Below, piece by piece: positions 1-24,007 of a stretch of 41,734 nucleotides of DNA. Positions within the stretch are counted from its first letter, which is position 1. Each line of letters begins with the position of its first letter. The stretch covers positions 1 through 41,734 of the forward strand of contig JAJQIK010000044.1 of the NCBI GenBank assembly GCA_021199255.1. The letters run 5' to 3'. A program made the translations under genes and the position numbers. The notes beneath the pieces are model-generated. The model ran no database searches. It saw only the letters and a list, made by a program, of their open reading frames with translations, and was not told where the DNA came from. Source of the DNA: Clostridiales bacterium. GTDB taxonomy: Bacteria > Bacillota > Clostridia > Lachnospirales > Lachnospiraceae.

Positions 1-91
1 CCTGTTTTCCAGACACAGCCCGGCGGGCTGCAGGATATCTGCTGTGTGGCGGGGAACTAAAACACGGAAAATACCGCCTTTTCCATACAGC

Positions 92-7194: not shown

Positions 7195-9600
7195 TTACAG
7201 CCACTCGTCCCAGAAGCGTTCTATTTGATGACCTATCTGGTCAACGCTGACAATCTGCGGCTCCCGCCACTCTCTGGGGAACAGTCTCCGGTAAGCGGGA
7301 GCCAGGAAACGATCGTCTAACAGCGCCACGATTCCGAAATCCTCCGCGGTGCGGATCACCCGTCCCGCCGCCTGCAATACCTTATTCATACCGGGATAGC
7401 GATAGGCATAATCAAAGCCGTTCTCTCCCCAGCCGTCAAAATAATTCTTCAGAATCTCTCTCTCATTGCATACCTGAGGCAGCCCTGTCCCCACAATCAC
7501 AGCGCCGATCAGGCTGTCGTTCTTTAAATCGATGCCCTCGCTGAATATACCGCCCATGACGCAGAAGCCCAGCAGGCTCTTGTCCTCCTCTGTCTCAATC
7601 TCCATATGGATCAGGGCGTTTAAGTCGCAGTCCTCATTGCCCGCAAAGCGGTTTAAAAACGCTTCCCGCGCCTGTTCGTCCATGTAATCCTCCTGCACGA
7701 TACATTCCACAGCTTCTTCCTTATTAAAATAACGCTGATAGATATCGTAGACCTGCCGCAAAAAAGCATGGGAAGGAAAGAACAGCATATAATTCCCGTG
7801 CCTTTTTTCCACGATATGATGGATATAGGCGGCAATTCTATAATACTCTTCATTGCTTCTGCGGCTATATTTGCTGGTCACATCTCTGCCGATATAAATT
7901 CCCAGCTTCTCCGGGGAAAACACAGACTTGGCATACACCTCGTAATCTCCCTGATCGGCGCCAAGCAAGGTCTTATAATACTGGACAGGCAGCAGTGTGG
8001 CGGAAAATAGAATCGTACTCCTGCCGCGCATCATGCACTCCCTGAGATTCTTCGCCGGATTCACGCAAAAGAGCTTCAGCCGAAAGCTGCCGTCCGCTTC
8101 CAGCTCCGAATAGGTAACGTAGTTTTCATCCAGCAGCTCATACATTTCCAGAAAATGGGACACCTCAAAATAAAATTCCAGAAGTTCTTTTCTAACCGGA
8201 CTTTCCTCATGCTTTTCCAGATAATCGTCTATGGCCGAGCTAAGACGGTTCAGCGCCCGCACAAAGGCATCGATGGTATCCTCGATCTGATAATTCTCAC
8301 AGGTTCTTTTCAGCTCCAGAAGCTCCTTATTGCACTGATCCAGCCTTCCGGCAATCCGCCCGTCATACGGCTTTACGGTCTTCTTCAACGCCAGAAAATC
8401 CTCCTTGCGCAGCACCGCGCTGTACATATCCCGGCCGCGCTCCACCAGATTATGAGCCTCGTCGATCAGGAAAATATACTCCCCCTTCACGCCCTCCGCA
8501 AAAAATCTCCGCAGATAGACATGGGGATCAAATACATAATTATAATCACAGATAACCGCGTCCGCAAAAAGACTCATATCCAGACACATTTCAAAGGGGC
8601 ACACCCGATGCTTTCTGGCATAATCCTCGATTTTTTCTCTATCATAATGATCCTCATGGGTTAACAGATCGTACATCGCCTCGTTGATCCTGTCATAATG
8701 CCCCTTGGCATAGGGACAGGATTCCGGGTTGCACTCCGTCTCCTCCATCAGACAAATCTTATCCTTTGCCGTCAGGACCACACTCTTAAACCTAAGCCCC
8801 TGCCCCCGCAAAAGGACGAAGGTATGATCCGCCACCGTACGGGTGATGGTCTTGGCTGTCAGGTAAAATATTTTTTCGCACAGCCCCTCCCCCATAGCCT
8901 TCACAGCGGGAAAAATCGTGGATATGGTCTTGCCGACGCCGGTAGGCGCCTCTATGAACAGCTTCCGTTTATGATAGATCGTCTGATACACATAAGTGGC
9001 CAGCTCCTTCTGTCCCTCCCGATAGGCGAAGGGAAATTCCAGCGCCTTAATAGAGGACTGGCGCAGGCGCTGCCACTGAAAGCTGTAATCCGCCCATTTG
9101 CGGTACTGCTCCATCAGCTCCAGAAACCACTCCCGCAGCTCCACATAGGTAAAAGCGGCATCAAAGTAACGAATTTCCTCCGTTTCCATATGACAGTAGG
9201 TCATGCGCACCCGGATATTCTCCAGTTGCCGCTGTTCGGCATAAATATAGGCATAACATTTCGCCTGGGCTAAATGCACCGCCACAGGCTCCTTCATCTT
9301 CTGTAAGTCGCGAAAGGTTCCCTTGATCTCGTCGATAGTCACCTCTTCTTTCGTAATAATACCGTCCGCACGCCCTTCCACGATGATTTCATAATTCATT
9401 TCATCGTCGGAACGCACTTCATATACATAACGCAGGCTCACCTCCGCCTGATACTCCGCGCCCATACGCCGCTGTATCATGCGATGGATACGGCCTCCCT
9501 CCTGCATGGCGTTTTCAGGGGCTGCCGTCTTTCGATTGTCAATATCTCCGGAACGCAGAATAAACTCCACCAGACTCCGAACCGAAACTCTCACTTCCAT
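7195..9600 (-). CDS. XPD/DinG-family DNA helicase with N-terminal PD-(D/E)XK nuclease-like domain
   Basis: Superfamily 2 helicase of the Rad3/XPD type, 801 residues. Residues 1-180 resemble a RecB/Cas4-type PD-(D/E)XK domain: Asp79 in GRADG, then D90-E91-I-K93 and the QAKCYAY helix near 112. The helicase part has Walker A EAPTGVGKT (217-225), Cys residues 283, 290, 295, 334 and 339 placed like the XPD Fe-S cluster, DEAH at 380-383, and motif VI AAGRVIRT near the C-terminus. ATG 9600 is chosen over 9624 and 9612 because GGAG lies 6 nt upstream. It probably repairs or processes branched DNA. Only 56 nt separate it from the upstream terminator and no promoter is evident, so it may depend on readthrough. 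Confidence 0.85.
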   Translation of the reverse strand: MEVRVSVRSLVEFILRSGDIDNRKTAAPENAMQEGGRIHRMIQRRMGAEYQAEVSLRYVYEVRSDDEMNYEIIVEGRADGIITKEEVTIDEIKGTFRDLQKMKEPVAVHLAQAKCYAYIYAEQRQLENIRVRMTYCHMETEEIRYFDAAFTYVELREWFLELMEQYRKWADYSFQWQRLRQSSIKALEFPFAYREGQKELATYVYQTIYHKRKLFIEAPTGVGKTISTIFPAVKAMGEGLCEKIFYLTAKTITRTVADHTFVLLRGQGLRFKSVVLTAKDKICLMEETECNPESCPYAKGHYDRINEAMYDLLTHEDHYDREKIEDYARKHRVCPFEMCLDMSLFADAVICDYNYVFDPHVYLRRFFAEGVKGEYIFLIDEAHNLVERGRDMYSAVLRKEDFLALKKTVKPYDGRIAGRLDQCNKELLELKRTCENYQIEDTIDAFVRALNRLSSAIDDYLEKHEESPVRKELLEFYFEVSHFLEMYELLDENYVTYSELEADGSFRLKLFCVNPAKNLRECMMRGRSTILFSATLLPVQYYKTLLGADQGDYEVYAKSVFSPEKLGIYIGRDVTSKYSRRSNEEYYRIAAYIHHIVEKRHGNYMLFFPSHAFLRQVYDIYQRYFNKEEAVECIVQEDYMDEQAREAFLNRFAGNEDCDLNALIHMEIETEEDKSLLGFCVMGGIFSEGIDLKNDSLIGAVIVGTGLPQVCNEREILKNYFDGWGENGFDYAYRYPGMNKVLQAAGRVIRTAEDFGIVALLDDRFLAPAYRRLFPREWREPQIVSVDQIGHQIERFWDEWL

Positions 9601-9655
9601 TTGTTTCTCCATTTCGAAACACATTCTTAAAGGCAGGCGCGCCCGGACGCGCCGC

Positions 9656-9732: not shown

Positions 9733-9957
9733 TTAGCATGCAACGGAAAACTTCTGGAGATATTTCTCAAAGTCGGCGCCATAACCGCCATAGGAGACGG
9801 TCAATATCTGGTTAAAATTAAGCCCCAGCACACCGATAATAGATTTCGCGTCTACAATAAAACTATTATAGGAAATGTCTACGTCAAAGCTGCATCTGGT
9901 AGCGGCGGCTACAAAATCCTTCACCTCATCCGGCCTTAATTTAATTCTATGCTTCAT
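9733..9957 (-). CDS. HPr-like protein lacking the phosphorylated histidine
   Basis: 74-residue protein with the HPr fold signature. The segment VDAKSIIGVLGL (about 35-46) matches the HPr regulatory-serine region (NAKSIMGVMSL), and the preceding FVAAATRCSFDVDI matches helix 1/strand 2. The GLHARPA active-site loop that carries the PTS phospho-His is absent; RPDEV occupies that place. It is therefore unlikely to be a PTS phosphocarrier and may be regulatory, like other degenerate HPr (Crh-type) proteins. ATG 9957 is chosen for the GGAAGGTG ribosome site; a longer frame upstream is not supported. Monocistronic, with promoter 10039-10066 and terminator 9656-9702. Confidence 0.72.
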   Translation of the reverse strand: MKHRIKLRPDEVKDFVAAATRCSFDVDISYNSFIVDAKSIIGVLGLNFNQILTVSYGGYGADFEKYLQKFSVAC

Positions 9958-10038
9958 AATGTTCACCTTCCTTTTCCATTTATGTATGCAAAAGTCACAC
10001 ATAGAAAAAAAACGTTTTCTTACTCCTCTTTTGAGTAG

Positions 10039-10066
10039 ATTATACTCCTTTGTTTGCTTTTGTAAA
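10039..10066 (-). promoter_or_regulatory. Promoter of the HPr-like gene
   Basis: -35 TTTACA (10061-10066), 16-nt spacer, consensus -10 TATAAT (10039-10044). The predicted leader is about 75 nt. Confidence 0.7.
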
Positions 10067-10205
10067 GAGCAATTATTGTACCCTTTAAAATACATTTTTG
10101 GCATTTTTTTACTTTTCCTGCAATATAGTTTGAATATCAAACCTTTTTTTGTAAAATTTGCACAGGCCGCACTTTATCTCTCTAAAGCCTCAATGCGCAT
10201 TTTAC

Positions 10206-11013: not shown

Positions 11014-12339
11014 CTACCGAAAGCCTCGCATCGATCCCATATCAAACAGCGACATCTGCCTGTAGACTGTGCCATCTGTCATAAAAGGGAGCTTCTCTCC
11101 CCGCCCCATCTGGTTCTGATAGGTAAGATTCCTGACAATGTATCCCTCCTCCATTTTGGTAGGATACATCATCTTGCCGCCGCAGGTAATAAAATAGAGC
11201 GCCCGCTTCAACACCACGCCAATCCTCTTTAAATCCTCAAAGGTCAGATTGCCAAACCGTCTGGCGGCCACAATACGTCTTGCGCTCTTAACGCCCACCC
11301 CCGGAATCCGCAAAAGAAGCTGATAATCGGCGCGGTTAATCTCCACCGGGAAAAGATCCAGATGCCTGACCGCCCAGTCCGCTTTCGGGTCAATGGCCAT
11401 ATTGAAATTAGGCCTGTCAGCCGTAAGCAGCTCCTCCACCCTAAAATAATAGAAGCGCAGCAGCCAGTCCGCCTGATACAGCCGATGTTCCCGCAGCAGC
11501 GGCGCTCCCTGCGCAGGAGCGGGCAGATCCTGATCTCCATTGACATTGACAAAGGCCGAATAATACACCCGCTTCAGCGAGAATTTGTTATATAAATTCT
11601 CCGCCACGGACATAATCTGGTAATCGCTCTCCGGCAGGGCTCCCACCACCATCTGGGTAGACTGTCCCGCCTCGCAGAAACGGGGAGCGTGTTTATACAA
11701 AACCAGTTCATTCCTGTTCTCCGCAATACCGTTCTGAATCAGCCGCATGGGTTTTAAGATATTCCTGCGATGCTTATTCGGCGCCATGGCTTTCAAGCCG
11801 TCCGCCGTCGCCATTTCCAGATTCACGCTCATACGATCCGCCAGATAACCGGCTCGCTGAATCAGCGCAGGGTCTGCCCCCGGTATGGCCTTGACATGAA
11901 TATAGCCCTGAAATCTGTGCACGGTACGCAGCTTATGCAAGGTTTCACAGAGCAGCTCCATGGTATCATTCGGACTGTACAAAATGCCGGAGCTGAGAAA
12001 CAGCCCTTCGATATAATTGCGCCTGTAAAATTCCATGGTCAGATCGCAGACCTCATCCGGCGTAAAGGAAACCCGCGGCACGTCGTTGGAGCTTCTATTG
12101 ATGCAATACTTACAATCATAGATACATTCATTGGTAAACAGAATCTTCAATAAAGAAACGCATCTGCCGTCCGCTGCAAAGCTATGGCACAGCCCCGCCG
12201 CTACGGTATTTCCAATTCCACGACCGTCATTTGCGCGGGATGAGCCGCTGCTGCTGCAGGAGACGTCGTATTTAGCCCCCTCCGCCAGAATCTTTAATTT
12301 ATCCATCACCGACATCTTTGGTGAAAGCCTGATTTCCAT
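11014..12339 (-). CDS. Radical SAM protein with C-terminal helix-hairpin-helix (TIGR03916-like putative DNA modification/repair)
   Basis: 441 residues. The radical SAM cluster motif CxxxCxxC is C72-C76-C79 (CIYDCKYC). A conserved N-terminal segment (VSCSSSGSSR, about 26-35) precedes it. Near residues 345-390 is a helix-hairpin-helix DNA-binding motif, LLLRIPGVGVKSARRI. This combination matches the family annotated as putative DNA modification/repair protein. Start ATG 12339 has AAGGAG 5 nt upstream. Followed by its TIGR03915-like partner. The promoter is flanked by two LexA boxes, so DNA-damage induction is likely. The reaction and substrate are unknown; a radical repair of a DNA lesion (as in spore photoproduct lyase) is only an analogy. 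Confidence 0.82.
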   Translation of the reverse strand: MEIRLSPKMSVMDKLKILAEGAKYDVSCSSSGSSRANDGRGIGNTVAAGLCHSFAADGRCVSLLKILFTNECIYDCKYCINRSSNDVPRVSFTPDEVCDLTMEFYRRNYIEGLFLSSGILYSPNDTMELLCETLHKLRTVHRFQGYIHVKAIPGADPALIQRAGYLADRMSVNLEMATADGLKAMAPNKHRRNILKPMRLIQNGIAENRNELVLYKHAPRFCEAGQSTQMVVGALPESDYQIMSVAENLYNKFSLKRVYYSAFVNVNGDQDLPAPAQGAPLLREHRLYQADWLLRFYYFRVEELLTADRPNFNMAIDPKADWAVRHLDLFPVEINRADYQLLLRIPGVGVKSARRIVAARRFGNLTFEDLKRIGVVLKRALYFITCGGKMMYPTKMEEGYIVRNLTYQNQMGRGEKLPFMTDGTVYRQMSLFDMGSMRGFR

Positions 12340-12384: not shown

Positions 12385-12398
12385 CGAACGTCTGTTCT
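12385..12398 (-). promoter_or_regulatory. LexA (SOS) box at the radical SAM start point
   Basis: The minus strand reads AGAACAGACGTTCG, matching 13 of 14 positions of the Firmicute LexA consensus CGAACRNRYGTTYG. It overlaps the predicted transcription start of the radical SAM operon. Confidence 0.75.
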
Positions 12399-12401
12399 TA
12401 T

Positions 12402-12430
12402 ATTCTAGCATAGGGCTGTTCCGAATACAA
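12402..12430 (-). promoter_or_regulatory. Promoter of the radical SAM / TIGR03915 operon
   Basis: -35 TTGTAT (12425-12430), 17-nt spacer, -10 TAGAAT (12402-12407). Leader of about 55 nt. LexA boxes lie on both sides. Confidence 0.72.
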
Positions 12431-12437
12431 GTGTTTT

Positions 12438-12451
12438 CGAACAAATGTTTT
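12438..12451 (+). promoter_or_regulatory. Second LexA (SOS) box upstream of the -35
   Basis: CGAACAAATGTTTT matches 13 of 14 positions of CGAACRNRYGTTYG. It lies 7 bp upstream of the radical SAM -35 element and 53 bp (about five helical turns) from the other box. It is about 50 bp from the asnA promoter. Confidence 0.68.
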
Positions 12452-12528: not shown

Positions 12529-12610
12529 AGTATATGGAAAAAGCAGGCATAACTGCCTGCAAAATCAGAAACGGGATTGGCGCGGCCAATCGTTTAGAAA
12601 TGAGGTTTTT

Positions 12611-23791: not shown

Positions 23792-23827
23792 AAGGAAAGT
23801 AAGCATAGCTTAACGCAAACTGAATAA

Positions 23828-23931
23828 CTTGCTAGGGGAGCTTTAGCTGAGACTGAGCGGGCGCGCGGTACTGCGCCGGACGCTCTGACCCTCATTACCT
23901 GACCCGGATAATACCGGCGTAGGGAAGCGAT
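23828..23931 (+). ncRNA. TPP (thi-box) riboswitch
   Basis: Contains the conserved thi elements in order: GGGGAGC, GCTGAGA (23847-23853), an accessory GC-rich stem, ACCTGACCCGGATAATACC and GGCGTAGGGAAGCG. Spacing and sequence fit the TPP aptamer. It lies between a sigma-A promoter and the thiamine transporter gene, as expected for a switch that lowers uptake when TPP is plentiful. Confidence 0.95.
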
Positions 23932-24007
23932 TGTACATAACAAAGGGCGCGGCGCGACATCGATCCGCCGTCACAGCGTCCGGTTATTTATTGCAATTAT
24001 AATCTCC

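Follow-up and report, generated by a model that had tools for sequence, protein, structure and literature searches.

Twin predicted LexA operators flank the promoter of a radical SAM/DUF4130 gene pair in a Lachnospiraceae genome

LexA control has been proposed before for gene pairs of the kind described here. For CAC3343-CAC3344 of Clostridium acetobutylicum, the prediction dates from 2013 and drew on footprinting and co-expression (PMC3828012). The accessible text of that paper describes a radical SAM 'DNA modification/repair' gene with a downstream gene of unknown function, by its wording the same pair as ours in another genus, and mentions neither a two-operator promoter nor the rarA variant nor the clamp-like motif reported below (PMC3828012). 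A COG1573-COG4277 operon, which includes a uracil-DNA glycosylase (UDG), is reported to be SOS-regulated in Verrucomicrobia and Alphaproteobacteria and predicted to be so in Bacteroidetes (PMC8565304). As in our locus, a COG4277 partner is under LexA, but the available portion of that paper describes the partner as a UDG, whereas ours is a DUF4130 protein without a UDG domain (PMC8565304). DUF4130 has also been tied by gene context to SOS neighbourhoods, SplB-like radical SAM enzymes and mutagenesis; the link to a radical SAM enzyme is shared with our locus, but the accessible text gives gene context without operators (PMC3765255), which are shown here. A LexA table for Streptomyces includes a radical SAM protein in the part available (PMC9380542), and the main text of the C. 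difficile LexA regulon paper, as far as it was accessible, makes no mention of radical, photolyase or glycosylase (PMC4234289). Among the matches listed for the clamp literature, 'radical SAM' stood beside 'sliding clamp' only for a mycoplanecin paper (PMC10817943). We found no literature on TIGR03915 or TIGR03916 by name, and none joining UdgX with radical SAM. COG4277 is presumably the same family as TIGR03916. An initial annotation of our locus had called the pair uncharacterised, which holds only in part: LexA control of the pair or of its UDG-linked form had already been predicted. The regulatory claim is right and not new in kind. Within the literature searched, what is added here is the conserved twin-operator promoter, the rarA variant, the independence from UDG, the side-by-side operator change between bacterial classes and the tail motif of the radical SAM protein.

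The window, by which we mean the whole 41,734-nt stretch of DNA that was analysed, carries two 14-bp palindromes at 12385-12398 and 12438-12451, 5′ of a minus-strand radical SAM gene that starts at 12339. The features of the locus are listed in the order of the minus strand:

12438..12451, no strand assigned: predicted upstream LexA operator, AAAACATTTGTTCG on the minus strand, 7 nt 5′ of the -35 element; 16.5 bits, second best in the window
12425..12430, minus strand: -35 element TTGTAT, from the sequence
12402..12407, minus strand: -10 element TAGAAT with extended TGC, from the sequence, 17 nt from the -35 element; architecture conserved
12385..12398, no strand assigned: predicted downstream LexA operator, AGAACAGACGTTCG on the minus strand, 3 nt past the -10 element and over the expected transcription start; 18.9 bits, best in the window
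11014..12339, minus strand: radical SAM protein of 441 aa, TIGR03916 (rSAM_link_UDG; 664.5 bits, cut-off 343.5), with PF04055 and PF12836
10206..11075, minus strand: TIGR03915/DUF4130 protein of 289 aa, overlapping the radical SAM gene (TIGR03915, 201.4 bits against 112.25; PF13566 alone at E ≤ 0.001)

Each box, taken in its better orientation (minus for the box at 12385, plus for that at 12438), agrees with CGAACRNRYGTTYG at 13 of 14 positions, and the centres lie 53 bp apart, both as initially annotated. Two such sites had also been considered unlikely by chance, a judgement that counting consensus matches did not bear out: the window holds eight matches with at most two mismatches, against 8.87 expected, and is thus not enriched. 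We therefore dropped consensus counting as a chance test and turned to conservation and to a matrix trained solely on recA and lexA promoters of the genus (88 sites, 23 distinct), with the training-set 5% cut-off of 15.3 bits as the strict threshold. By this independent measure the two boxes are clearly set apart, the third-best site in the whole 41.7 kb reaching only 10.5 bits.

Read along the minus strand, the upstream box (12451-12438) is followed by a short A-tract, TTGTAT, 17 nt, TGC-TAGAAT, 3 nt, the downstream box (12398-12385), a ribosome-binding site and the ATG at 12339. This anatomy, obtained by computation like the operators themselves, agrees with the earlier placement of one box over the predicted start and the other just upstream of the -35 element. 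The same architecture was found in relatives, where all 93 box pairs enclosed the pattern TTGNNN-16..18-TANNNT with TGN before the -10 element, reading towards the radical SAM gene (shuffled spacers, 0.07%); in the reverse orientation, none of the 93 did. The distance from the end of the upstream box to the -35 element ranged from 7 to 33 nt (median 8) and that from the end of the -10 element to the downstream box from 3 to 14 nt (median 7). Box spacings were 53 and 55-66 bp in 81 rows (L022 and L140 both counted) and reached 80 bp in the 93-pair set, covering every helical phase. DNA looping of fixed phase between the operators is therefore unlikely, and the spacings lead us to favour two blocking sites. 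Further upstream, at 12543-12560, the leader of asnA contains a hairpin that is followed by T's on the minus strand and so resembles a terminator reading towards the promoter region of the radical SAM gene. This leader gave no riboswitch match in Rfam; elsewhere in the window, a TPP riboswitch (RF00059, 65.4 bits) lies at 23824-23942 on the plus strand.

Conservation of the boxes upstream of orthologues had been named beforehand as the check on their function, and the computed results supported it at each taxonomic distance. In the genus set, 73 of 77 genomes had a match and 71 loci were examined (the window and 70 others), of which 70 were usable; G061 and G066, which are pieces at contig ends, and L091, whose match starts at residue 80, were left out. 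All 70 loci had at least one site of ≥11 bits within 450 bp, compared to 1.3% of shuffled upstream regions, and 65 had a pair of such sites 45-85 bp apart (0 of 7,000 shuffles), the other five having a single box. Under stringent criteria (15.3 bits, 250 bp), one site was present in 67 and two in 56 of the 70 loci, with 0.14% and 0% in the shuffled controls. As a further control, 284 stretches within the radical SAM coding sequence were scanned; the share with a site was 22.5% at 6 bits and 13% at 8 bits, and 10 stretches had one at 11 bits and none at 15.3 bits.

Outside the genus set, we used 32 loci, mostly from Lachnospiraceae (L139 and L141-L171; L140 was left out as matching L022, and L092-L138, largely genus contigs again, were not counted). 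A site lay within 450 bp in 23 of them and within 1,900 bp in all 32, with a site pair within 1,900 bp in 28; in the 1,900-bp shuffle controls the corresponding values were 3.7% for one site and 0 of 1,920 for a pair. The longer reach is justified because rarA can lie between the boxes and the radical SAM gene. Across the phylum (Bacillota), 45 of 199 genomes had a match above the family cut-off, to which the set was confined, and 40 more distant loci were used after leaving out the window's own genome, G179, G221, G231 and G265; several genera are present twice or more. Judged by the best site between -200 and +40, 31 of the 40 loci reached 9 bits, 24 reached 12 bits and 18 reached 15.3 bits. 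Shuffles gave 1.6%, 0.55% and 0.05% at the three thresholds, and none of 141 other ORFs of these loci had a site at 9 bits. Nine of the 40 loci had no site of ≥9 bits in the stretch scanned. Predicted SOS control of the pair is thus common, not universal.

We next consider how far the operon extends. The HPr-like protein encoded further along the minus strand (9733-10140) has a weak HPr match, and the His that is usually phosphorylated in HPr appears, by eye, to be replaced; it is followed by an XPD/Rad3-like helicase of 809 aa (7195-9624, minus strand), which scores below the cut-off of the rad3 model. Both genes keep the same strand and order in all 33 loci examined (the 32 outside the genus set and L140), as would be expected if the pair were part of a four-gene SOS operon. 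We consider such an extension unlikely. The HPr-like gene of the window comes with a separate promoter-like sequence (10066-10039, 11 of 12 matches), and a hairpin of 18 pairs that resembles a terminator lies behind it (9703-9662); on these grounds we reject the four-gene operon there and end the operon after the DUF4130 gene. The argument is weaker at other loci, where a loose promoter pattern precedes the HPr gene in 62 of 79 cases (a count without a control) and only 6 of these 79 have a terminator behind that gene. The 40 phylum loci yielded no homologue of either the HPr-like protein or the helicase, although these stretches reach only ∼2 kb past the radical SAM gene and would miss a more distant helicase. 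The two-gene operon of the initial annotation is therefore retained, given the promoter-like element of the HPr-like gene.

At E ≤ 0.001, Pfam did not detect a UDG domain in the DUF4130 protein of the window. We aligned it with 47 of 59 proteins chosen from 74, and all 48 rows contained DUF4130, with UDG not among the 21 families listed at E ≤ 10. The invariant residues are R171, F198, R265, N267 and E285, and E162, F172, P186, R201 and P276 are nearly so; no conserved Asp or His was seen in the 48 rows. Members of the DHH/DHHA1 superfamily, such as RecJ and Cdc45, are presumably marked by conserved Asp/His metal ligands. Kinship of DUF4130 with DHH/RecJ proteins was rejected at the sequence level, since nothing emerged from a 48-member Pfam scan, a profile search of solved structures or hhalign comparisons with nine RecJ-like frames and a further DHHA1 frame. 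Similarly, a sequence search for solved relatives returned nothing at E ≤ 0.1.

Another reading is that the pair serves uracil base-excision repair under SOS control, as proposed for the COG1573-COG4277 operon (PMC8565304). In its favour, DUF4130 is fused to a UDG-superfamily domain, annotated as UdgX, in three proteobacterial partners that were examined with Pfam; the partner in A. baumannii has DUF4130 alone. The window and all ten other phylum partners tested, on the other hand, have DUF4130 without UDG, as do the 48 aligned partners as far as listed, and LexA control is retained without UDG. Moreover, neither of the two UDG-superfamily genes in the window's genome has a LexA site reaching 9 bits in its locus. 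We regard a uracil-repair role as quite improbable. Since UDG is present in some partners only, the constant unit is the radical SAM protein with DUF4130.

The palindrome itself does not name the protein that binds it, although GAAC-N4-GTTC is the LexA motif of Gram-positives according to the accessible part of an earlier study (PMC3323433). The window's genome encodes both LexA and RecA, confirmed by family searches, and the same motif precedes recA, where two boxes lie 25 bp apart, as well as lexA and uvrB. The last of these genes was named from its sequence and is presumably uvrB. Among the matches listed (100 of 115 pattern matches in the genome), inspection by eye revealed two sites within 100 bp only in the window and at recA. 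A different repressor that recognizes GAAC-N4-GTTC could in principle act here in place of LexA, in that motif identity alone does not identify a protein, and LexA-domain matches vary in number across the genus, with a second one in some genomes and none in 9 of the 77 (two of them within the 39 most complete). We consider this very improbable, because the sole LexA-domain gene of the window's genome has the motif at its own promoter as well as at recA and uvrB, and because the operator in Alpha- and Betaproteobacteria becomes the type characteristic of LexA in those classes.

This operator change was seen at plasmid-borne homologues, for which 18 of 158 records were examined. GAAC-N7-GAAC was present within 150 bp at all 12 alphaproteobacterial loci (shuffles, 0.65%), at -93 in L323, unlike in the remaining 11, and CTGT-N8-ACAG was present at both betaproteobacterial loci (shuffles, 0.14%). 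We take these patterns to be the LexA operators of Alpha- and Betaproteobacteria, respectively. The Acetoanaerobium homologue had a box of the Gram-positive type, and the loci of the A. baumannii, Fusobacterium and Gemmatirosa homologues had none of the operator patterns sought. Together with the boxes conserved in the genus, its relatives and the phylum, these class-typical operators support the proposal that the pair belongs to the SOS response, with LexA as the likely repressor.

Some further observations concern these genomes. In Azospirillum sp. TSA2s, a TnpB-family gene (L319:3749-4891) lies on the opposite strand between the radical SAM and UdgX genes. The lexA promoters of L003 and L172-L201 contain as many as four or five box-like sites; in most of these loci the one closest to the gene is off-consensus and CGAACAAATATTCT-like. 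Two more sites were noted in the genome of the window: a LexA-like site of 15.8 bits (L002:2629-2642) ∼230 bp 5′ of a gene for an HhH-GPD base-excision glycosylase, a possible further member of the SOS regulon, and a very strong one of 20.5 bits (L019:2228-2241) with no clear target ORF, the nearest long ORF reading away from it starting >300 bp off.

The neighbouring genes help to define the target of the boxes. In ten of the 32 loci outside the genus set (L143, L145, L152, L153, L155, L160, L165, L166, L169 and L171), an AAA+ gene lies between distal boxes and the radical SAM gene. Generic AAA ATPase models are the best NCBIfam matches of the ten proteins, and the RarA model NF011289 is matched with 173 to 234 bits, short of the 570 set as its cut-off; the three proteins tested with Pfam match MgsA_C with 216 to 226 bits, compared to a cut-off of 27. 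A site precedes this rarA-type gene in all ten loci and a pair in eight, L143 and L152 having a single one, and L143 has an additional site adjoining the radical SAM gene. The boxes thus follow the head of a changing cluster, which is hard to explain unless the operators regulate that cluster. That the boxes serve asnA, or both genes, is scarcely credible: asnA runs divergently from 12611, 271 bp from the radical SAM gene, and is also divergent upstream in many relatives, but box pairs stay beside the radical SAM gene where asnA is kilobases away or missing from the locus, precede rarA where it heads the cluster, and enclose a promoter pattern that reads towards the radical SAM gene in all 93 pairs. 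For the window's own genome, SOS control of rarA was also considered and rejected, as neither of its two rarA-like genes (L304, L305) has a site above 9 bits in its locus.

The radical SAM protein carries, besides its helix-hairpin-helix match (PF12836), a C-terminal peptide that may be relevant to its function. We aligned it with 39 of 42 proteins that a script had chosen from 118. Six Cys are invariant in all 40 rows, among them C72, C76 and C79 of the CX3CX2C radical SAM motif. When SplB membership was considered, TIGR03916 was the sole family model listed for the protein at E ≤ 0.001, and a sequence search for solved relatives returned helix-hairpin-helix and short radical SAM matches alone. 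Residues 428-432, QMSLF, resemble a clamp-binding motif. A QL[SD]LF-type peptide is what we take to be the client motif of the beta sliding clamp. A relaxed pattern of this type is present in 36 of 40 tails and absent from the other four rows (shuffled tails, 2.5%), a strict pattern occurs in 17 of 40, and none of 48 DUF4130 proteins has such a motif. The peptide thus looks like a sliding-clamp-binding motif, and binding of the clamp itself is suggested more weakly by this resemblance.

Taken as a whole, we are highly confident in a model in which the two boxes are LexA operators flanking the promoter of an SOS operon with two genes, first that of the TIGR03916 radical SAM protein and then that of TIGR03915/DUF4130. 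From the operators and the arrangement of the promoter, we infer that LexA represses this operon and that DNA damage induces it. In undamaged cells, LexA dimers on both boxes, one over the start site and one abutting the -35 element, would exclude RNA polymerase. Upon damage, RecA-driven cleavage of LexA would free the promoter, and the radical SAM and DUF4130 proteins would be produced. The former may then act on damaged DNA via a 5′-deoxyadenosyl radical, probably at the replication fork or behind it, where the helix-hairpin-helix domain and the clamp-binding-like C-terminal peptide could hold it, with DUF4130 as its constant partner. Clamp binding and lesion chemistry are the more tentative parts of this scheme. 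The SOS boxes had also been taken as support for a DNA-repair role; the regulation does support a role in the damage response, but it does not show the chemistry.

A more specific form of the model is possible, though we would not favour it at present: the pair may be a clamp-tethered, SOS-induced machine for radical repair or lesion editing at the fork, with the radical SAM protein on DnaN via its C-terminal peptide, a partner with a catalytically dead RecJ/Cdc45-like fold, RarA sometimes co-operonic and a UDG domain in some lineages only. If true, this would be a lesion-processing chemistry separate from both SplB and uracil excision.

A gene pair with no known chemistry has been kept under apparent damage control in two phyla, and its operator changes with the LexA type of the host. 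Such retention across an operator switch suggests that the pair is needed when DNA breaks or replication stalls. For a search for its substrate, the conservation points to the conditions, to likely partners (DnaN, RarA) and to a constant core of the radical SAM protein and DUF4130 without UDG. It also opens a more precise question, namely which lesion a radical enzyme that may be linked to the clamp handles under SOS control.
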